Source: an uncultured Saprospiraceae bacterium (GTDB taxonomy: Bacteria > Bacteroidota > Bacteroidia > Chitinophagales > Saprospiraceae). From it: a stretch of 64,000 nucleotides of DNA. The notes under the pieces were generated by a model. It did not search any database, had not been told where the DNA came from, and saw only the letters and a list, made by a program, of their open reading frames with translations. Where the stretch lies: the NCBI GenBank assembly GCA_937951685.1, contig CALFBG010000021.1, positions 1 to 64,000 of the forward strand. The letters run 5' to 3'. Of this stretch, positions 12,438 through 26,301 are shown one piece after another. The translations under genes were made by a program, and so were the position numbers. Numbering within the stretch: the first letter of the stretch is position 1; each line of letters starts with the position of its first letter.

Positions 12438-14432
12438 ATGAATACTGAAAATTTCACTTATTACTTAAAGAATCCCGCCGCGCTTTATCAAATCACCTAT
12501 CAGGAGATGAAGAGCATGGTGAAGCAGTATCCTTATTGTCAAAACTTAAGGTTCTTGCTCGTCAAGAAAAGTCAAATCGAAAATCATAAAAATTTTGATA
12601 AAGATTTGAATACCGCTGCGACCTTTAGTCCAGACCGGAGTTTCTTTTTCAAACAAATTAAAAAGAATGTTCTTTCTGATCCGGGAGAAGATAGCTTCCG
12701 TTTACAAGAAGACTATTTGGAGTTATTGGATTTGAGTAGTGAAATTACTTTGCCGCTCAACGAAACGACCGATCCAGAAGATCAAGTTCACTTGGAAAAT
12801 AAATTTAGTCTGATTGAAGAGATCGTTCCTCCCGTAACAGAATTGCCCACCACCGATCAAAATAAGTCTTTAGCGGCACAGTTGAACGTGGAAGAAGATT
12901 CAGATGCGAAAGCGGAAGAACAAAAAGCTATCTTTTTAGAGGATTTGGTCAAAGACCAAAAAATAACACTCGCACAAAAAAATAATGAGCGCGCCCCGAT
13001 TCTTATCCCTCCAATAACTCCTCCCGACACGGAATTCGTCGAAGAGATTGTCCAAGTTGAAGAAGAAACACCTTCTGCTGATCCGATAATAGAAGCTCCT
13101 TCTCCGGCTACCTCAACTGGCAATTTAGCGCCAGAGGATTTCGATCCAGTGGTTCCTGCCCAAGAAGTAATTGAGCCACAAACAATACAAGAAGAAGTTA
13201 TTGAAGAACTTCTTGAAGAAGTTTCCGACGTCGAAGAAGAAGATTTAAACGCAATACCAACAACGCCGATCGAAGAAAACCAAGTAGCAGATCTAATCGA
13301 GGATGTAATGGACGATTCCATTGAAGAAGTTGCTCCATCCAGCTCCACGGAGCACCCCGAAAGTAAGCCCTCAGTGCCTAATGATACCGTAGAAGAAGGT
13401 AGCGTCCTCGAATTCTTAGTGCAACATAATAAGCGGAAAGAGCTCGTCCCAGAAGACGAATCCTTAATGGCAGAGAAACCGGCTGAGCTTTTGCAAGAAA
13501 GCGAAGTCATTGGAGAATCAGGAGAAGAGATCGAGCCCGAAATGCCTAAGAAAATTGACGAAATCATCGAAAGCCTTGAAAGTACAGACCCTTTAACTGA
13601 TCTAACGAACGAAGCACTCCCAACCGAAGCTATTCCTTCGGAAACACCACCTGCCGCAATAGAACCTGAGATGGATGCCGCTCCACCTTCCAAGGAAGAT
13701 ATTCCTTTTGAAACCGTGCCTGCTAACATTTTAGCACCTAGCCCGAAAGATTCTTTCGAAAGTTGGATGAAAAAATATCACGAATCTTCTAATGAGGAGA
13801 AAAAGAAAAGCAAGAAAAAAATAAAAAAGAAGAAAAAAAAGGAGAAAGCAAAACGAAAAAAGCAGCAAAACGAAAATCAGCCCAAAACGCTCAAGGAAAA
13901 GAAAAAGGCGGAAGATAAGGCTAGTAGTGAAAATCCGATAGCAAGCAAGACGGAGGAGAATGCCGAAAAAAGTATCGAAAAGAACGTCGAAAAGAAAGTC
14001 GAACCCTTGCGCATTAAGCGTCGAAAAAGAATACCAAGGCTAAATCTTGACCATAAAAAAGGGGAAAAGAAAGCCCCCGAAGCGGATACTGATGAAAAAA
14101 ATAAGCCCACTAAAGCAATCAAGCCTAAAAAGCTAAGCGTTACGCTCAAAGAGGCAAAAAAGCTGACCGCAGCGATAAACTTGATTGATCCGTCCGATAA
14201 AAAGAAGAAAAAAAAGAAAAAGAAAAAAAAGAAAGACAGATATAAAGATTTGCCAAAGAACATCTTTGAACATCAAGACATCGCTTCTGAAACTTTGGCA
14301 GAAATTTTGGTTAAACAAGAGAGTTATGATCAAGCAATTCTCGTCTATCAGCGTTTAAGCTTGATTTTTCCCGAAAAAAGTGCTTACTTTGCAAAAAAAA
14401 TTGATGCGTTAGAAATTCTAAAGCAACAATAG
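12438..14432 (+). CDS. Acidic/Lys-rich protein with a TPR-like C-terminus, function unknown
   Basis: A 664-residue protein that I cannot assign a function. The N-terminal ~75 residues form a compact conserved-looking block (NFTYYLKNPAALYQIT...PYCQNLRFL). Residues about 90-450 are low-complexity and rich in Glu, Pro, Thr and Ser. Residues about 455-590 are very Lys-rich and include a run of 12 lysines (about codons 587-598). The last ~60 residues look like one tetratricopeptide pair (SETLAEILVKQESYDQAILVYQ). No signal peptide or membrane segment is seen, so it should be cytoplasmic. It sits between lptE and secG, where Bacteroidota often have a TPR-type protein of this build. The long homopurine tract at about 14197-14235 is prone to replication or ribosome slippage. 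Confidence 0.8.
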   Translation: MNTENFTYYLKNPAALYQITYQEMKSMVKQYPYCQNLRFLLVKKSQIENHKNFDKDLNTAATFSPDRSFFFKQIKKNVLSDPGEDSFRLQEDYLELLDLSSEITLPLNETTDPEDQVHLENKFSLIEEIVPPVTELPTTDQNKSLAAQLNVEEDSDAKAEEQKAIFLEDLVKDQKITLAQKNNERAPILIPPITPPDTEFVEEIVQVEEETPSADPIIEAPSPATSTGNLAPEDFDPVVPAQEVIEPQTIQEEVIEELLEEVSDVEEEDLNAIPTTPIEENQVADLIEDVMDDSIEEVAPSSSTEHPESKPSVPNDTVEEGSVLEFLVQHNKRKELVPEDESLMAEKPAELLQESEVIGESGEEIEPEMPKKIDEIIESLESTDPLTDLTNEALPTEAIPSETPPAAIEPEMDAAPPSKEDIPFETVPANILAPSPKDSFESWMKKYHESSNEEKKKSKKKIKKKKKKEKAKRKKQQNENQPKTLKEKKKAEDKASSENPIASKTEENAEKSIEKNVEKKVEPLRIKRRKRIPRLNLDHKKGEKKAPEADTDEKNKPTKAIKPKKLSVTLKEAKKLTAAINLIDPSDKKKKKKKKKKKKDRYKDLPKNIFEHQDIASETLAEILVKQESYDQAILVYQRLSLIFPEKSAYFAKKIDALEILKQQ

Positions 14433-17578: not shown

Positions 17579-19897
17579 ATGCAAATTTCATTTTTCCAAA
17601 AAATTTGTTTCTTGTTGTGCTTAAGCCTAATTAGCTTTTCGCTACCCGCTCAGATTCATATCAATGAAATTCAAAGTTCTAATGCCAATGGATTAGCCGA
17701 CGAAGATGGAGATTATCCGGACTGGATCGAATTGTACAACGCTGGCGATGTCGCCGTCAATTTAGTAGACTACGCCATCAGTGATGATGCCGCGGATTTA
17801 AATAAATGGCGTTTTCCAGCCATTGATCTTCCAGCAAAAGGTTTTTTACTAATTTTTGCTTCGGATAAAGATCGAAAAACGGGTCCTTATTTACATACCA
17901 ATTTTAAAATTTCCGCCGCCGGGGAAACACTTTACCTCGTCGATCCTCTGGAGAATATACTACATCAACTCCCCGCCGTTGCGCTTTCCCCCAATGAATC
18001 TTACGGTGCTTTTCCCGATGGTGCTGCATTATTTAAATACTACGCATTGCCCACTCCCGGAGCCACCAACCTCGCTAGTACCGCCCTTGAGTTCTCCCAC
18101 GCCCGTGGTTTTTACACCGAAAATATTAGCTTAAGCATTAGCTGTAATCTTCCTAATGCTGAGATTTACTACACCTTAGATGGCAGTATTCCAAACCTCA
18201 ATTCCTTACGCTATACCCAAGCCTTAGCGCTAGAAGATCGTTCTTCCGCAGCCAACCAAGTCAGTACCATCCCAACCACGCACGGTAAACCAGAGAACGA
18301 AGAAAAATTCCACCACTGGCTTTGGCAAAAGCCAAAAGCGAACATTGCTAAAACCAATATCGTCCGTGCAAGGGCCTATTTAGCCACGCAACCCGTGAGT
18401 AAAATCTATTCCAATAGTTACTTTATTTTTGCGGAAGGGGCAGATCGTTATCCTTATCCCGTCATTTCTATAATCACCGCACCGCAAAATTTATTTGATG
18501 AACAGACAGGAATTTACGTCCCTGGTGTGCTGCACGATGCCAATAATCCAGAATGGACGGGCAACTATTTCCTACGAGGTAGCGACTCCGAGCGCCCTGC
18601 TCACATCGAATATTTTGAAAACGACGGTAGTATTGGCTTTCACCAAGATGCGGGTGCCCGTATTCATGGCGGCAATACCCGAGATGCCGCACAAAAATCG
18701 TTGCGCATGTACGCCCGCAAAAGCTACGGTCAAGAACATTTCAACTATCCCCTTTTTCCTCGACGCCCCGCACAAGCTCAGTTCGAAAAATTCATTATTC
18801 GTAGTTCTATTACTTGCTGGAATAATACCATTTTCAAAGATGCACTCTCCCACCAAATCGTCAAAGACCTTAATTTTGACATTCAGGATTATCGTCCGGT
18901 GGTTTTATTTTTAAACGGAGAATACTGGGGCATGCAAACCTTGCGGGAACACAATGACGAACGCTATTTGGGGATTTTAAATAACTTAGACAAAGATAGT
19001 ATTGAAATTATTGATGCTTGGAATAGTTCCGATCAACCAGAATATGAAGCTTTCAAAAGTTTTTATAGCAACGAAGATTTGAGTTTAGCGGCTAATTATG
19101 CGATTGTTGATCAAACGATCAATTTAGCAAACTACATTGATTATCAAATTGCTGAAATTTACTTTGCTAATTTGGATTGGCCTGGTAATAACTTAGAACG
19201 GTGGAAACATCAAAGCGCTGGTAGTAAGTGGAATTGGATCTTTTTCGATCTTGATGGTGGCTATTTTGATCCTGAGATGAATACGCTCGCTTATGCCCAA
19301 GCGGAGAATAGTAATCACTGGGCCAATCCAGAACCCACTACCCGACTCTTTCGAAAATTGATGCAAAACGAAGATTTTCAAACTCGCTTTGCCAATCGCT
19401 TCGCCGAATTATTAAATACCACTTTTCATCCAGAGCGGGTTTTACCTTTAATTGATGCGTTTACCGAAACATACATTGCGGGTATTGAAGAACACATTGA
19501 ACGGTGGAATTTTCCGGCCAGCAAAAGTCAATGGTTAAATGATATCTCTGGCACATTAAAATATTTTGTAGTAAACCGCACTTGTCATCTACAAGATTAT
19601 TTGATGGAAGATTTAGACATTGACGTTTTTAGTCCACAATGCTTTGAAGACACTAACGAGATTGGCCGCTTAAAGATTTATCCAAATCCGTCGGAAGGAC
19701 TTCTACAAATAGAATTACCCGCAGCAAAAACGAGTAGTGAGGTGGTAGAAGTTTACAATAATTTGGGACAACGAGTTGAGCAGTTTCTACTCACCACAAA
19801 TTCTTTAGCATACATCGACTTCAGCAATTTTCCAACTGGAATGTATTACTTGCGGCTAGTTTCCAATCAGCAAGTCGAGAAATTAATTATCCACTAA
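17579..19897 (+). CDS. T9SS-exported CotH-kinase/lamin-tail protein
   Basis: A 772-residue secreted, multidomain surface protein. Seen in order: a signal peptide (1-24, ending LPAQ), a lamin-tail domain (about 25-140, starting IHINEIQSSNANG), and a chitobiase/hexosaminidase-type C-terminal domain (about 170-215, with YYTLDGSIPN). A CotH kinase domain follows at about 290-640, with ARIHGGNTRD, KSLRMYARKSYG, the metal-site stretch WIFFDLDGGYFD, and 'NRFAELL'. The end is a T9SS type A sorting domain (about 690-772, KIYPNPSEG...VEKLIIH). CotH family members phosphorylate secreted proteins in spore-formers; in Bacteroidota the substrate is unknown. It is probably anchored to the surface after sorting-domain cleavage. 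Confidence 0.9.
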   Translation: MQISFFQKICFLLCLSLISFSLPAQIHINEIQSSNANGLADEDGDYPDWIELYNAGDVAVNLVDYAISDDAADLNKWRFPAIDLPAKGFLLIFASDKDRKTGPYLHTNFKISAAGETLYLVDPLENILHQLPAVALSPNESYGAFPDGAALFKYYALPTPGATNLASTALEFSHARGFYTENISLSISCNLPNAEIYYTLDGSIPNLNSLRYTQALALEDRSSAANQVSTIPTTHGKPENEEKFHHWLWQKPKANIAKTNIVRARAYLATQPVSKIYSNSYFIFAEGADRYPYPVISIITAPQNLFDEQTGIYVPGVLHDANNPEWTGNYFLRGSDSERPAHIEYFENDGSIGFHQDAGARIHGGNTRDAAQKSLRMYARKSYGQEHFNYPLFPRRPAQAQFEKFIIRSSITCWNNTIFKDALSHQIVKDLNFDIQDYRPVVLFLNGEYWGMQTLREHNDERYLGILNNLDKDSIEIIDAWNSSDQPEYEAFKSFYSNEDLSLAANYAIVDQTINLANYIDYQIAEIYFANLDWPGNNLERWKHQSAGSKWNWIFFDLDGGYFDPEMNTLAYAQAENSNHWANPEPTTRLFRKLMQNEDFQTRFANRFAELLNTTFHPERVLPLIDAFTETYIAGIEEHIERWNFPASKSQWLNDISGTLKYFVVNRTCHLQDYLMEDLDIDVFSPQCFEDTNEIGRLKIYPNPSEGLLQIELPAAKTSSEVVEVYNNLGQRVEQFLLTTNSLAYIDFSNFPTGMYYLRLVSNQQVEKLIIH

Positions 19898-19978: not shown

Positions 19979-21457
19979 TTATTCTTTCGCTGGTGGCGGT
20001 GTCGTTAGAATGCGCTCCATTAGCTCATCCAATTGTTCTGCTCCGATCCGTTTTGAAATAATTTCTTTCTTTTCGTCTAATACAAAAATCTGCGGAGTCG
20101 TTCGTACGTCGTAGGTTATTTTAAATTTAGACTTAAGGTAAGGATCAACCACATTAATCCATCTCGTCATTCCCTTCTCTTTAATCATTTGTGCGCAAGC
20201 AGGAACTTCCTTATAAGTTCTGGTACAAACCGCAAACACTTCTACCCCACGAGGTTTAAATTTATCATAAAACTCAATCAACTTAGGCATAGACTTCTTG
20301 CAATGACCGCAATCTGGGTCCCAGAAAAACAGGACGGTGTAAGGCGATTTGACTTCGTGCAAAGTCATCATACCTTTCGTTTTAACCCTATGGTGTGCAT
20401 TTTCTTCGTCTTTTGCTTTAATGGTTCCTTCCACGTCCAACAATTGCATATTAATATCTGGTGCAATTTTACCAACCAAAATGGGAATCAAGGTTTTAGC
20501 ATTTTTGATAATCTTGTTGAGCTGTTCTTCTTCCGTCCATTTTGCTTTTCCGGTCATATAATATTTTTCAACGATATGCACATACAGCGCGTCCATCCCT
20601 ACGATCTTTGACTTCGCTGCTTCGTTTAAAAAATGTACGACGTAGTATTTAAAAGATTCTTCGCTGGGCGAAAGCAAATCCAAAACATAATCAACAGCAA
20701 TTGCTACTGAATCAGGGTGCTGCAAGGTCATTTTATTGACATAATAATCAATTCTACGGTGTAAGCCCGGACTACGTAACATTGCAGGATTGCCCATTTC
20801 GTAATTATCGAACCAGTGTTCCTTATAAAATTCAAAATTCTTTCTTTTCAGTTCATCCCCTTCTAGCTCAAACTTAGGTGCTTCTGGTTCCACCCCAGAC
20901 TTGATCATCATCTTCGTTACGCTACTATTTGGATCATTGCCAATCAATTTCCGTTGTCGATCTCTCACCACCTGGTTGATTGCTTCCATCTCTTTTTCTA
21001 AAGCCGGTTTGTCCGCAGCACTCGCCTCCTCTATGCGTTTTTTTAAGGCTTCTCCTTTAATTCTTTGTGCGCCCAAAAACTTGAGGTAATCGTAGAATAA
21101 CTTATTGTCTGCCGTATTTTTTGATTTAAATCCATTGACGGGATCTTTCACATCCGTTTCCACCGTAAAATGTTGTTCCCCTTGGTTAATCATCACTTGT
21201 AGAAACTGATTTTCTGGTGGCATCACGATCAAGTAAACCCCCGGTTCTAGTGCTTTTTCGCCCTTAAATACAAAATATCCGTTGGGATTTAGTTGCACCG
21301 TATCTTTGATGTATTGCTTATCACCATAATAATTTGCCAACAAGATTTCAGGTTCGGTAAAACCATTTAATTTTACTTTAATTTCATATCCATCTTGTGC
21401 CAAAAGAAAATTGCCTACCAAAAGTAGGGAGAGAGAGAGTAGTACTGTTCTTAACAT
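19979..21457 (-). CDS. TlpA/DUF4369-type thiol-disulfide protein
   Basis: A 492-residue exported protein with a C-terminal thioredoxin fold. The start at 21457 is chosen because it gives a proper signal peptide (MLRTVLLSLSLLLVGNFLLAQ); a start at 21505 would add 16 charged residues before it. Seen: an N-terminal DUF4369-like beta-domain (about 22-110), a helical middle region, and a thioredoxin-like domain from about 360. The redox motif there is Cys383-Gly-His-Cys386 (CGHC, as in protein disulfide isomerases), with a cis-Pro block RTTPQIFVL. A role in periplasmic disulfide reduction or cytochrome maturation is likely. The gene stands alone. Confidence 0.88.
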   Translation of the reverse strand: MLRTVLLSLSLLLVGNFLLAQDGYEIKVKLNGFTEPEILLANYYGDKQYIKDTVQLNPNGYFVFKGEKALEPGVYLIVMPPENQFLQVMINQGEQHFTVETDVKDPVNGFKSKNTADNKLFYDYLKFLGAQRIKGEALKKRIEEASAADKPALEKEMEAINQVVRDRQRKLIGNDPNSSVTKMMIKSGVEPEAPKFELEGDELKRKNFEFYKEHWFDNYEMGNPAMLRSPGLHRRIDYYVNKMTLQHPDSVAIAVDYVLDLLSPSEESFKYYVVHFLNEAAKSKIVGMDALYVHIVEKYYMTGKAKWTEEEQLNKIIKNAKTLIPILVGKIAPDINMQLLDVEGTIKAKDEENAHHRVKTKGMMTLHEVKSPYTVLFFWDPDCGHCKKSMPKLIEFYDKFKPRGVEVFAVCTRTYKEVPACAQMIKEKGMTRWINVVDPYLKSKFKITYDVRTTPQIFVLDEKKEIISKRIGAEQLDELMERILTTPPPAKE

Positions 21458-21915
21458 AAGTATTTTAAGTTTAAAAGCTCGATACCGCACCTTGCATTTC
21501 ATCAATAATATACAATAATATATAAATGCCCAACGCTAAGCTTTCAGCGCAAATAACGCTCCATTTTAGATTTTAAATTCTTTAATTGCTCCAATCAATC
21601 TATCCAATTGAAAGCTTGTCTTTACCTTCCTAAAACTACTTTCGCATAAGCACTATTGTACGATCGTATTGAAATGCAAGACAATTAAATTTTCCTTAAC
21701 AGTCGGCGTATCCTAAACGTAGTTACGAGGCACTTTCAAAGGAAAAAATACATCAGCAAAAATAACCAAACTGTTTTGCAAAAACTAGGTTTAGGGCCAG
21801 AACTTGCAGCCTTTGATAAAGAAGAACGTCCTGTGTGTAGGATACACGACAGGACGTTCTAACTTACCATTTCTTAAAAACGCTACTGAGTTATTTCTTC
21901 AAGCATTAGTTTTTA
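21458..21915. other. Gap between the coiled-coil and TlpA-like genes
   Basis: No gene is seen in this gap. It carries a short palindrome GCGCAAATAACGC near 21550 and the hairpin at 21823-21860 listed separately. The rest is plain AT-rich sequence. Confidence 0.5.
21823..21860 (-). terminator. Strong hairpin after the coiled-coil gene
   Basis: Stem AGAACGTCCTGT/ACAGGACGTTCT (12 bp perfect) with an inner GTGT/ACAC extension. It lies 56 bases beyond the stop codon of the coiled-coil gene. There is no T-run directly after it on the minus strand, so it may act as an mRNA 3'-end stabiliser rather than a classical terminator. Confidence 0.55.
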
Positions 21916-24900
21916 CTAATTATTTGTCTTTTTAGCCTTTTCGAGTTCCGCTTTTACTTTTTCTAAAGCCGCTTTAGCCGCGCTTAGTGCTGCCTGCGTA
22001 GATTGAAGTTGCTGAGCGGCGGCATCATTTTCCTGTTTGGCTTGATTCAACGCAGTTTCTTCCGCTTTGCGTTTTCCTACTAAAACAGCTTGCTCTTCTT
22101 TAAATTTAGCACGTTCCATTGCAATTTTTTCGGCAGTATCTTCTTTTATTTTGGTAATCTGTTGGGTAGCCTGTTGCTTTGCCGCGTAGACGGCATCGGA
22201 AGCTTCTTTTTGAGAAGCGCTAATTTCTTCTTGTGCGAGTAACCTTGCTTTTTCTGCATCCGTTAAGTATTGCTTCTTTTTTTCGGCAACGTCCGCGCGA
22301 ATATCCGCTAGTTCTTTATCCGTTTTAGCTCTTTCTGCGGCGACCTCTTCGGCAGATTTAATTTTAGCCGTTTCTACTTCCTTGGCGTAAGCTGCTTTTT
22401 TATCTTCTGTTTCCTTTTTAACGATTGAAATTTCCTCCACGGCTTGTTGCTTCGTTAGCGCAACTTCCGTTGCCGCTTCTTCTTTAACTTTTGCGACTTC
22501 GCTTGCTGCTGCTTCTTTCGTCTTCAAGATACTCAAAGCCGCTTCTTCCTGCGCTTTGGCCATCCGTTCTTTTGCCAGTTTGATTTCGTTGGCGGCTTGC
22601 TGTTGGGTTGCCCCAATTTCATTTGCTGCATCTTCTTTCGCTTTTGCGACACTATTCGCCTGAGCTTGTTTTTCGGTAGCAGCCTTCTCTTTTTCTTGCC
22701 GAATCATTTCTGCGGATTCTGCTTTAATCTTAGCTACCGCTTCAGCCTCGTTGCGTTTTGCTGCTGCAATTTTATTAGAAGATTCTTGCTCCGCTAAGGC
22801 TTCTTTTTCTTTTGCCGCAGCGATGGACTTTGCTACTTGTTCTCGAGTCAAGGTCAATTCGCGCGCAGCTTTTTCCTTTGCCGTCATCACCTCTTCGACG
22901 GTAAGTTCCATGACATTTTTTTCGTTAGCTTTAGCTGCTGCAATTTTGGTTGCTACTTCTGCTTGAATCGTTTTAATTTTTTCTTGTGCTAAAGTTTGTG
23001 CTCCTGCAATTTCCTTTCCGTACGCTTCTTTGGCCGAAGCAGACTTAGCATTTGCTTCCTGCACTCTGGTAGCTGCTTCTAGTTGTGCTTTTCCAATTTC
23101 GGCAGCCGCATTTTCTTTCGCCTTTGCTACTTCTGCGGCAGAATTTTTCTTTGCTAAAGCTTCTTTTTCCTTTGCGGCAGCGATAGATTTATTGACCTCT
23201 TCCTGAATGCGAGCGATTTCGGCGGTTGCTTTTTCTTTGGCGGCACGTACGTCTTCCGCTATTTTTTCCTTTTGTACTTTTGCTTTTTCATTCGCAGCGG
23301 CAACTTTTGTGGCCGCTTCTTGATTGATTTCTGAGATCGATTGCGACGCCCGTTCCCTTGCGGCAGCTACATCTTGGGCCGAAGCCATTTTTTCTTTTTC
23401 GGCGATTTCTTTCGCTTTGGCAATTTCGGCGGCAGAATTAGATTGTGTTGAACTAATTTCAGCGTTTGCCTTTTCCTTTTCCGAAGCGACTTGTTGTTTC
23501 GTTTCGTTAATTGCTTCCGACGCACGTTGCTTTGCTTCCGCTACGGCGAGCGCCGAATTTTCTTTTTCTTTGGCGGCAGTTTCTTTAATGGCAGCGATTT
23601 CACTAGCATTAGATTCGGATAAGGTTGCTTTTTCCTCTGCAGCTTTTCTTCTAGCTTCCGCTACGCCGAAAGCAATCTTTTCTTTTTCTAAAACCGCGTT
23701 TTCTTTTAATTGGGCAATTTTTTCCGCAGTTTCTTCCTTTACACTCAAGATTTGCTCCGAGGCTGTTTTTTTGGAATTGACGACATCTTCTGCTGTTTTA
23801 TTCTTCTCCGTCTTGGCCGCTTCTCTAGCATTAGCAATTAGCGTTGCCGTTTCCGAGCGAATTTTATCTAGCTCTAGCTTGGAGTTTTCCCTCGCCGAGG
23901 CGACTTCATCCGAATACTCTATTTTAGCTTGCTCCAGTTTCTCTTTGACCACTTTAATTTCGGCGGCTGCTTTATCCCGAGCAGCAACAACTTCTTCTGC
24001 CGACTTAAGTTTCGCATCTTGTACTTCTTTTGCCGCATTTTGGCGAGCTTCCTCTACGTTTAGATTAATTTTTTCAATCTCCGTAGAAGCTTTAGATTTG
24101 GCATCTACGACAGACTGTGCTACTTCTGAATTCGATTTTTCAATTTCTTCCGAAGACTTCTTTCTTGCTTCTAAGACCTCTTGTGCGTATTCCGTTTTCT
24201 TAGCTTCGGCTTGTTCTCTAGCAATCGCTACTTCATCTTGTAAATTCTTTTTGATTTGTTCGGCTTTATCTCTTTCTAGTTGAATTTCTTCTTTCAGTGC
24301 CGCTTTCGTTTCCACCAATTCCTTTCGCAAAGCAGCTAATTCTTCGTCGTTGAGTAAGCTAATATCAGCGATTCTTCGTACGCCGCCACCAGAAGTAGCA
24401 CTAATTGGTCTACCACCACTTGAGGTTTTAGCTCCCCCACTAGACGAGAGATCATTTCCGCTCAAAGCGACATTTTTGACCTTAGATTTATCCAGATTCG
24501 AGTTGAAACAATTTGCCATTTTTTGAAAAACGGCTTGTCGACTTGGATTCACCGAAAACTTAAACATTTTATTGGTGATATTATTCTTTAGATAAATGGT
24601 GCTGATCCCCGTGGTTGAGAACCATTCCATGGCCGCAAAATCCAATTGTAGCACATTTTGGTGAACGGGCGTTCCTCCTTGCTTAATTACTTCTCCCATT
24701 TCGATAAAACGGTAACTTTTTCGCTTATTGGCTTTATCCATGAAGACGACCTCATCATCTTGGTTGAACTCTACCCCACTCGTAGAAAGTACTTTGGCCA
24801 TTACACCTTTATTATCGGTATAGAAGGAAATACTATAGCTATAATTACCCCGCACGACTAACGTCTGCTGCTCGGTCTTTAGCACTTGCGTATTTCCAAT

Positions 24901-25008
24901 TTTCTTATTGGTTTCAATGAAAGAACCACACCCTTGTGCGGATGCCGTAGGATTGATTACCAAAGTAAAAAAAAGAGAAGAGAATAAGATCTTAAAAAGC
25001 TGCCTCAT
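21916..25008 (-). CDS. Exported long coiled-coil protein with 40-residue repeats
   Basis: A 1,030-residue protein (start at 25008 preferred, giving the signal peptide MRQLFKILF..PTASAQG). After the signal come about 160 residues of beta-type sequence with two cysteines, then a Gly/Ser linker (about 185-212). A continuous Ala/Glu/Lys-rich coiled coil runs to the C-terminus. Counted by hand, it is built of consecutive units that begin like A-x-[DE]-V-x-x-A-K and measure 40 residues, or 40+11 or 40+18 (see findings). Two units share the exact string SIAAAKEKEALA, a sign of internal duplication. No membrane segment follows the signal peptide, so it should be periplasmic or surface-exposed. A spacer, tether or fibre role is inference. 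I know of no named family for it. Confidence 0.8.
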   Translation of the reverse strand: MRQLFKILFSSLFFTLVINPTASAQGCGSFIETNKKIGNTQVLKTEQQTLVVRGNYSYSISFYTDNKGVMAKVLSTSGVEFNQDDEVVFMDKANKRKSYRFIEMGEVIKQGGTPVHQNVLQLDFAAMEWFSTTGISTIYLKNNITNKMFKFSVNPSRQAVFQKMANCFNSNLDKSKVKNVALSGNDLSSSGGAKTSSGGRPISATSGGGVRRIADISLLNDEELAALRKELVETKAALKEEIQLERDKAEQIKKNLQDEVAIAREQAEAKKTEYAQEVLEARKKSSEEIEKSNSEVAQSVVDAKSKASTEIEKINLNVEEARQNAAKEVQDAKLKSAEEVVAARDKAAAEIKVVKEKLEQAKIEYSDEVASARENSKLELDKIRSETATLIANAREAAKTEKNKTAEDVVNSKKTASEQILSVKEETAEKIAQLKENAVLEKEKIAFGVAEARRKAAEEKATLSESNASEIAAIKETAAKEKENSALAVAEAKQRASEAINETKQQVASEKEKANAEISSTQSNSAAEIAKAKEIAEKEKMASAQDVAAARERASQSISEINQEAATKVAAANEKAKVQKEKIAEDVRAAKEKATAEIARIQEEVNKSIAAAKEKEALAKKNSAAEVAKAKENAAAEIGKAQLEAATRVQEANAKSASAKEAYGKEIAGAQTLAQEKIKTIQAEVATKIAAAKANEKNVMELTVEEVMTAKEKAARELTLTREQVAKSIAAAKEKEALAEQESSNKIAAAKRNEAEAVAKIKAESAEMIRQEKEKAATEKQAQANSVAKAKEDAANEIGATQQQAANEIKLAKERMAKAQEEAALSILKTKEAAASEVAKVKEEAATEVALTKQQAVEEISIVKKETEDKKAAYAKEVETAKIKSAEEVAAERAKTDKELADIRADVAEKKKQYLTDAEKARLLAQEEISASQKEASDAVYAAKQQATQQITKIKEDTAEKIAMERAKFKEEQAVLVGKRKAEETALNQAKQENDAAAQQLQSTQAALSAAKAALEKVKAELEKAKKTNN

Positions 25009-25362: not shown

Positions 25363-26301
25363 CTAATTCGGTCGTTTTGCTGCCAATAAATATAAGATTG
25401 CCATTCGAATAGCTACGCCATTTTCTACCTGTTGGAGAATAATCGACTGGTCAGAATCAGCCACGTCGCTAGTGATTTCTACTCCGCGATTAATAGGACC
25501 AGGGTGCATGATTACCACTTCAGAGTTGAGCTCATTCAAGAGCTGTTTATTCACACCAAAGTACCGTGCATATTCTCTCAAAGAAGGAAAGTATTTAATA
25601 TCTTGACGTTCTAATTGAATGCGCAAGATATTCGCAACGTCACACCATTCCAAGGTCTCTCGAGTATTGTAAGAAACTTCCACCCCCAGTTTAGCGATAT
25701 GTTTAGGAATTAACGTTGGCGGTCCGCAAACGCGCACGGTAGCGCCCATTTTTTGTAAGCAATAGATATTGCTCAATGCTACTCTAGAGTGTAAAATATC
25801 TCCGATAATGGCAATTTTTTTCCCGCGCAAATCGCCAAGTTGCTCTCGAATCGAAAAAGCATCTAATAACGCTTGGGTTGGATGTTCGTGGGTTCCGTCG
25901 CCAGCATTGATGATATTGGCGTCGATGTGGCGAGCCAGATAGGCCGGCGCGCCAGGTGCAGGATGGCGCATTACCACCATGTCCACTTTCATGGAAAGGA
26001 TGTTATTCACAGTATCCAGCAGGGTTTCTCCTTTTTTGACGGAAGAGGAAGCTGCAGAAAAATTGACGACATCCGCAGAAAGTCGTTTTTCGGCCAATTC
26101 GAAGGAAATTCTAGTTCGGGTTGAATTTTCAAAAAAAAGATTAGCGACGGTGACATCACGAAGGGAAGGTACTTTTTTAATGGGCCGATTGATAACTTCC
26201 TTAAATTGATCAGCCGTTTCGAAGATTAACTGAATATCAGCTGGCGTTAGGTATTTGATGCCTAAAACGTGCTTGGTACTGAGTTGCGTATTGGTCGTCA
26301 T
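25363..26301 (-). CDS. pyrB: Aspartate carbamoyltransferase catalytic chain
   Basis: A 312-residue enzyme that joins carbamoyl phosphate and L-aspartate, the first committed step of pyrimidine synthesis. Seen: the carbamoyl-phosphate site FFENSTRTRISFE at about 56-68, MRHPAPGAP, HEHPTQALLDAFSI at about 138-151, and the aspartate-binding HPGPINRGVE near the C-terminus. Normal length. pyrR lies upstream on the same strand (88-base gap), so the two probably form a pyrR-pyrB operon. No pyrI regulatory chain gene is present. Confidence 0.96.
   Translation of the reverse strand: MTTNTQLSTKHVLGIKYLTPADIQLIFETADQFKEVINRPIKKVPSLRDVTVANLFFENSTRTRISFELAEKRLSADVVNFSAASSSVKKGETLLDTVNNILSMKVDMVVMRHPAPGAPAYLARHIDANIINAGDGTHEHPTQALLDAFSIREQLGDLRGKKIAIIGDILHSRVALSNIYCLQKMGATVRVCGPPTLIPKHIAKLGVEVSYNTRETLEWCDVANILRIQLERQDIKYFPSLREYARYFGVNKQLLNELNSEVVIMHPGPINRGVEITSDVADSDQSIILQQVENGVAIRMAILYLLAAKRPN

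Follow-up and report, generated by a model that had tools for sequence, protein, structure and literature searches.

A predicted helical rod protein family of Saprospiraceae whose length varies almost only in whole helical turns at two sites

INTRODUCTION

Long parallel helical rods with a pseudo-repeat, fixed discontinuities, and length differences of whole repeats occur in intermediate filaments, lamins, and tropomyosin, all of which are heptad-based, left-handed, and intracellular. Other coiled coils have a hendecad or mixed periodicity, tetrabrachion being one example. Here we describe a rod protein encoded on the minus strand at positions 21916 to 25008 of a 64,000-nucleotide stretch of DNA (the window) from an uncultured Saprospiraceae bacterium (GenBank assembly GCA_937951685.1, contig CALFBG010000021.1, positions 1 to 64,000), in which units of three hendecads and one heptad follow one another at a pitch of 3.636 residues per turn. 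For comparison, the available part of PMC4786415 gives about 3.63 residues per turn for an ideal straight helix, 3.5 for heptad coils, and 3.67 for hendecad coils.

We consider it probable that this is an exported structural protein of Saprospiraceae, in which a head and a flexible linker precede a parallel, non-supercoiled helical rod, and which may form a filament in the cell envelope. The structural core of this proposal is well supported, and from it we infer how the rod may oligomerize, where it may be located, and what its role may be. The protein is carried by a family of environmental bacteria and is apparently unstudied: our literature searches found no title or abstract on it, although it has no name to search by, and no paper combining Saprospiraceae with coiled coils.

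RESULTS

Layout of the rod protein

The protein and its parts, all on the minus strand, are as follows.

21916..25008, minus strand: rod gene, 1,030 amino acids, ATG at 25008, stop at 21916
24937..25008, minus strand: putative signal peptide, residues 1-24, by inspection (Lys, hydrophobic core, ASA before Q25)
24451..24936, minus strand: head domain, residues 25-186, 162 amino acids, beta-sandwich then helix
24349..24450, minus strand: Gly/Ser-rich linker, residues 187-220, from sequence and low predicted local distance difference test score (pLDDT)
22129..24348, minus strand: helical rod, residues 221-960, units of 3x11+7 residues
24034..24186, minus strand: 51-residue unit (+11), residues 275-325, from hidden Markov model (HMM) decoding
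23374..23511, minus strand: length-variable site 1, residues 500-545, overlapping the 58-residue unit (486-543)
22387..22539, minus strand: second 51-residue unit (+11), residues 824-874, position conserved in orthologues
22264..22431, minus strand: length-variable site 2, residues 860-915
21919..22173, minus strand: tail, residues 946-1030, helical in the model, length free

An in-frame TTG lies 24 bases upstream of the ATG. Orthologue N-termini resemble the signal-peptide region of the window protein, and no lipobox was recognized by eye at its N-terminus; the putative signal peptide suggests export via Sec and a location in the envelope. The predicted helix covers about 800 amino acids. Residues 221-960 contain no Pro, Cys, Trp, or His and are rich in Ala, Lys, and Glu. 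If it were one continuous helix, the rod would be about 120 nm long, with about 106 nm for the core between residues 232 and 945.

Forty-residue units and a straight hydrophobic stripe

A sequence-only reading of the gene had described consecutive units, mostly of 40 residues, that begin with A-x-[DE]-V-x-x-A-K and depart from 40 only by 11 or 18. Unit starts fall at residues 258, 275, 326, 366, 406, 446, 486, 544, 584, 624, 664, 704, 744, 784, 824, 875, and 915, so that boundaries and lengths are exactly as claimed (17, 51, four of 40, 58, seven of 40, 51, 40, and a tail of 116). The units are real, but the exact motif is present only four times, and the tail, although of the length given, is partly repeat, since the repeat continues to about residue 973. 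The period itself was recovered by autocorrelation over residues 221-1020 (z = 14.4 at lag 40, 11.7 at lag 80, 11.1 at lag 120, and 9.8 at lag 11, with z taken from shuffles scored at lag 40). Fourteen lags reached z of 7 or more (40, 80, 120, 11, 69, 91, 51, 109, 58, 29, 98, 22, 62, and 18), and all lie within 0.05 of a whole turn count at 40/11 residues per turn. Lag 7 by itself gave no signal over the same residues (z = 0.6), and the rod thus lacks a heptad pattern of 3.5 residues per turn; the best fit is 3.636. Fourier analysis, suggested in the same reading as a check, placed the V/I/L/M/F peak at 3.635 residues with a power of 29.

Across 83 proteins the consensus unit is approximately A-x-E-V-A-E-A-R-x-K-A-A-E-E-I-x-x-I-Q-E-E-A-A-x-E-I-A-x-A-R-E-x-A-x-x-E-K-x-x-Y/S, that is, three hendecads of the form E-[VI]-x-x-[AIT]-[KRQ]-x-x-A-x-x plus a single heptad that has Lys instead of the core residue. 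The consensus pitch is 3.636 and not 3.667 because every fourth step is 7 rather than 11. A cyclic 40-state HMM, with letters seeded from 11 regular units of the earlier reading and refined on the 83 proteins under a uniform jump prior, placed jumps near residues 326, 511, and 851, in agreement with the proposal that the 51-, 58-, and 51-residue units represent +11, +18, and +11; a further jump was decoded at residue 937 of the window protein. Over all real proteins, 367 of 372 decoded jumps belonged to the register set. These jumps are not independent because most are inherited: both +11 units recur in nearly all orthologues, the one at residues 275-325 with equal size and in about the same place in nearly all that were decoded. 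An artefact of the decoder was rejected, as simulated rods with random jumps gave just 59 of 311 decoded jumps in the register set, and planted indels of 1-3 residues were recovered as such with no register bias. A drifting low-complexity region is ruled out as well. Rod identity among orthologues is about that of the head, and the same-numbered unit was the best match between proteins in 2,368 of 3,293 comparisons (300 random pairs omitting L047, L076, and L128; chance 1/11).

Hydrophobic residues form a regular stripe at the pitch of a helix. The fit to 81 proteins (L047 and L128 dropped) gave 99.02 ± 0.04 degrees per residue, or 3.636 residues per turn, and the mean resultant of the stripe was 0.487 vs 0.175 for shuffles (shuffle maximum 0.296). 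In 81 of the 81 proteins this resultant exceeded that of a version with five random deletions of 1-3 residues. Along the window protein, the local stripe direction stayed within 33-93 degrees (19 overlapping windows) across about 198 turns, which is one face of the helix. On a 99-degree wheel, V/I/A occupy 234-315 degrees, acidic residues 198-225, and basic K/R 324-351, with an Ala-rich neutral face at 0-54; residue type tracks angle rather than position in the unit. A stripe running straight along an undistorted helix predicts that the Lys of the heptad should join the basic stripe, and so it does.

Rod length changes almost only in whole turns at two sites

Lengths were compared in 83 proteins with complete rods (82 and that of the window; one or a few per genus, 18 from genus g63), leaving aside 25 truncated copies (L049-L073) and the cut L048. 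Relative to the window protein, the distance between residues 232 and 945 differed by -29 (7 proteins), -22 (22), -18 (9), -11 (8), 0 (21, the window's included), +11 (2), +22 (1), +26 (2), or +29 (9). Differences were of whole turns in 81 of the 83 rods, the outliers being L047 (-86) and L076 (-94), and these totals depend on the two end anchors only and not on where MAFFT placed gaps. Outside residues 500-545 and 860-915, no net change was seen in 79 of the 83 proteins.

Changes were counted on a quick LG+G4 tree of 82 rows, built without both variable sites and with L047 omitted; since the tree is approximate, the counts are minimal estimates. There were at least 18 changes at site 1, where two states (-27 in L031 and +15 in L096) may reflect gap placement, and at least 8 at site 2. 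The remaining 613 residues of the rod had at least 3. On the same tree, at least 63 changes were counted for the linker (59 amino acids, measured over residues 173-232) and likewise for the tail (86 amino acids); the 143 residues of the head had at least 8 (L128 left out of the head count). Distinct nonzero lengths fell within 0.15 turn of a whole number in 9 of 9 cases for the rod (L047 omitted), 6 of 25 for the linker, 14 of 42 for the tail, and 1 of 5 for the head, against a chance expectation of about one-third by our own count over 1-30. The 25 length differences of the linker and the 42 of the tail thus show no quantization.

In a held-out set of 22 further proteins (42 later proteins minus 20 identical to earlier ones, with some close relatives remaining), 21 lay within 0.10 turn, 6 of them unchanged. 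The exception, L208, went from -34 to -33 when realigned with three more rods of its genus, which likewise have -33. The more Leu-rich rod of genus g102 (L209:5410-8241, plus strand) still differs by -29, at variable site 1 only. Finally, a 1,381-residue open reading frame (ORF) in a Saprospira genome (L258; G313:C78) has a rod about 400 residues longer, with an apparent internal duplication, in which 7 of 7 decoded jumps keep register and 99.1 degrees per residue was the best of the few angles tried.

The sequence-only reading had expected orthologues to differ by sums of 7 and 11. Most do, but the clade of L040, L042, and L096 (+15 or +26) does not. As +15 and +26 still lie within 0.15 turn, the correct unit is the whole helical turn. 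Its further proposal, that selection strongly favors a nearly straight coiled coil without breaks, was supported by the whole-turn changes at two sites, the freely varying linker and tail, the 3.636 stripe, and codons that carry no repeat; "coiled coil" in the oligomeric sense would be a further step, taken up below. We propose that a change other than a whole turn would rotate everything downstream, and so only whole-turn changes survive.

A different origin of the quantization would be mutational, with the rod having grown by in-frame duplication and loss of 11- and 18-residue DNA modules and other lengths never having been purged. Sub-repeats at 11 and 18 residues do resemble each other, nearly all changes sit at two sites, like slippage hot spots, and the longer Saprospira rod has its apparent duplication of about 400 residues. 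The window gene, however, retains no DNA-level repeat: no tandem repeat was reported in it, and its codons carry no repeat signal beyond that of the protein (832 identities vs 820 expected, with an identity of 0.33 at third positions for lag 40). A recent tandem array or gene conversion in this gene is thereby ruled out, and recent duplication fails to explain the pattern. Ordinary length changes are moreover common in the linker and tail and nearly absent from the 613 rod residues. We therefore regard a purely mutational quantization as unlikely.

Several observations weigh against the proposal of an exported structural rod or limit it. Four of the 83 proteins (L031, L047, L076, and L096) deviate outside both sites: L031 by -2, possibly through alignment placement (total -29); L096 by -59 (0.22 turn) between residues 327 and 446, yet with a total of -22; and L047 as a real exception (-86, 0.35 turn), this being the most divergent protein and from another family of the order. 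The +15 and +26 differences of one clade breach the sums-of-7-and-11 rule. Among the held-out proteins, L134, L171, and L208 have shifts at neighboring segments, and among the most divergent rods the boundary that follows residue 915 is uncertain (two alignments give -44 or -33 for L245 and -22 or -11 for L246). A strictly fixed absolute rod length fails, as the longer Saprospira rod shows that length is not fixed in every lineage. Of the 79 inner branches of the tree, 26 have weak support; three branches are long, and three joins of long branches are suspect. AlphaFold2 modelled the full-length monomer with a mean pLDDT of 68 and a predicted template modelling score of 0.28, and the helix was interrupted at mature residues 379-389, 673-679, and 769-773; this model neither helps nor refutes the proposal because long single helices are poorly handled. 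Lastly, 196 of 398 Saprospiraceae genomes have no match to the head domain, so that the rod is not essential to the group.

Pairing and orientation of the rod

The charges that flank the hydrophobic stripe differ sharply between its two sides, with D/E at 0.56 vs K/R at 0.09 on one and 0.02 vs 0.75 on the other. Parallel pairing would bring unlike flanks together, whereas antiparallel pairing would make like charges face each other, and on this basis we favor a parallel homo-oligomer. Because the pitch of the rod is that of a free helix, it would have essentially no supercoil, and the same faces would point alike along its whole length, an arrangement suited to rods that bundle side by side or lie against a flat surface. 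The rod may work as a filament or stiff spacer, either periplasmic or on the cell surface, and the head may dock to a partner.

Alternatively, a monomeric rod could coat a membrane as an amphipathic helix, whole-turn indels keeping a lipid-facing stripe straight. The 11-residue pattern can be likened to those of alpha-synuclein, perilipin, and LEA proteins, and the 11-residue steps, the single hydrophobic stripe with basic residues beside it, and the high content of Ala, Lys, and Glu all agree with such a coat. Its hydrophobic sector, however, spans just about 80-90 degrees between acidic and basic stripes with sharp borders, which we take as a mark of two- or three-stranded coils and not of lipid-binding helices, and the units keep their own identity across proteins. 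A membrane-coating rod is in our view quite unlikely.

The head domain

AlphaFold2 predicted the head, from 41 sequences, as a beta-sandwich with a C-terminal helix (mean pLDDT 92), and a 60-sequence alignment supports its extent over residues 25-186. No known family was found for it. The window protein (P0001) matched no Pfam or NCBIfam family at E up to 1, and 60 head domains gave scattered weak matches to 26 Pfam families, the commonest being DUF7189 (5 of 60; best E 0.0013). A PDB sequence search found no relation to the rod protein, and Foldseek with the head gave no match at E 0.001 or better. Structural matches to IalB, NEAT, and adaptin-ear folds were within the range that the tool calls common (IalB-like fold: best VIA Z 8.2, root mean square deviation 4.5, 132 aligned, 3dtd_D).

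One to four copies of the head domain also occur at the N-termini of five TPR-CHAT-like proteins (L207, L240, L241, L242, and L243) from genus g22 and G098, whose genomes also have the rod. The CHAT domain of L207, the one scanned, matched Pfam at E = 3e-57, and those of the other four were read by eye. By eye, these proteins have signal-peptide-like starts, and the one at L207:1355-5281 (minus strand) ends in a probable membrane helix. Near this gene lies an ORF (L207:9240-9968, minus strand) that by eye resembles a caspase-type (C14) peptidase. Second head-domain matches with in-frame stop codons, perhaps decaying paralogues, were seen at L226, L227, and L228 (G289, G365, and G113).

The head might thus bind a ligand or partner in an envelope sensor or scaffold, the rod setting a distance in a circuit common with the head-bearing TPR-CHAT proteins, for which their presence in two genera with rod-bearing genomes would speak. 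The window's own genome has the rod copy only, as the sole match of the own-genome search, and 189 of the 202 matching Saprospiraceae genomes have a single head-domain match. A sensor or scaffold of this kind is very unlikely.

Distribution, neighborhood, and possible relation to bundle fibres

Of 398 Saprospiraceae genomes, 202 have a match to the head domain, as do 37 of 298 genomes of the order (36 Saprospiraceae and 1 from another family) and 4 of 395 genomes from the whole phylum, all 4 Saprospiraceae; each count includes the window's own genome. Named relatives (42 contigs) were assigned to Saprospiraceae, Saprospirales, Lewinella, or Phaeodactylibacter (including P. xiamenensis, whose rod gene is L166), or to unplaced Bacteroidetes or bacteria. 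The viral contig collection held no rod relative. Sampling error as the cause of the unmatched genomes is partly answered: the head profile on 20 of them gave one weak match only (E 0.03). In 18 of these 20 (the other two being partial or distant matches), the locus of pyrB, the aspartate carbamoyltransferase gene upstream of the rod gene, was taken, and the next gene was DUF4369/thioredoxin-like (by eye) at 9 loci and another gene at 5, with too little DNA at 2 and no pyrB motif match at 2.

The two neighbors of the rod gene in the window are as follows.

25363..26301, minus strand: upstream neighbor, aspartate carbamoyltransferase-like, which we take to be pyrB
19979..21505, minus strand: downstream neighbor, DUF4369 plus thioredoxin-like protein

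The surroundings of the gene were read at 65 loci, one of them that of the window; some genomes are represented twice, and several loci are truncated at contig ends. The rod gene was present at 64 of the loci, with a pyrB-like gene immediately upstream at 41 of these 64 and a DUF4369/thioredoxin-like gene immediately downstream at 23. The rod gene is therefore old at this pyrB-adjacent place, and it has been lost from, or was never in, about half of the family. The neighbor genes at the 64 loci gave no hint of rod function.

In the genus Saprospira (g80), 5 of 5 genomes tested have a head-domain match, among them the Saprospira grandis type strain; four carry an ordinary rod and one the longer rod. 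According to the available part of PMC9870892, 7.5-nm fibres abound in S. grandis cells after osmotic shock, seemingly over the entire cell body; Flavobacterium johnsoniae has similar fibres beneath its outer membrane, and of four labelled Gld lipoproteins only GldJ was on them. The rod could then be a building block of the S. grandis bundle fibres, or multirail, and hence part of the gliding track, since this species has both the fibres and the rod gene in its type-strain genome. F. johnsoniae has similar fibres, yet the head domain was confined to Saprospiraceae in the phylum survey, and the available part of PMC9870892 makes no mention of such a protein. GldJ was found at E < 1e-96 in 20 of 20 genomes with the rod and in 18 of 20 without; its model matched at E 0.001 in all 40, rod or no rod, with 1 of 40 passing the curated cutoff, and no link between rod and GldJ presence was seen. 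We judge such a role in the bundle fibres and the gliding track to be distinctly unlikely. A broader proposal, that the rod is a structural unit of a Saprospiraceae envelope cytoskeleton (with the Saprospira bundle fibres as a candidate), straight, non-supercoiled, about 120 nm long, packed side by side via the second, Ala-rich face, and with heads docking partners including TPR-CHAT proteins, is likewise quite improbable as a whole.

Elsewhere in the window, six of its seven tandem-repeat rows cluster at 13191-14234 as short A/G-rich repeats of 9-17 bases, and a large CotH-like protein is encoded at 17579-19897 (plus strand), presumably with a type IX secretion C-terminal domain.

DISCUSSION

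The rod family offers a clean natural experiment. At least 26 changes at two sites are almost all of whole turns, and the linker and tail serve as internal controls, so that the textbook inference that indels respect helical register becomes measurable across many genera, with permitted and forbidden insertions supplied by the same family. Little is understood of the envelope filaments of these bacteria, and a very long, apparently exported rod at the pitch of a free helix is a concrete candidate component.

The rod shares 11-residue steps, a deviation from 3.5 residues per turn, and indels that keep the core in phase with the hendecad and mixed coiled coils described in the available part of PMC4786415, but here three hendecads and a heptad recur, about 15 full units in all, and give 3.636 residues per turn, essentially the pitch of a helix without distortion. 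The synaptonemal complex SYP proteins, as presented in the available part of PMC8598163, likewise conserve coil length and are depleted in indels inside the coil compared with outside; there, sequence diverges and indels are fewer, whereas the rod conserves its sequence and its surviving indels are quantized in whole turns, a comparison that claims no homology. Intermediate filament, lamin, and tropomyosin rods differ from this one in that it is apparently exported and non-heptad, lag 7 being flat. Finally, the multirail or bundle fibres of the Bacteroidetes gliding machinery resemble the proposed filament as long envelope filaments seen in a species that carries the rod gene, although the component identified on them by labelling, in the available part of PMC9870892, is GldJ.

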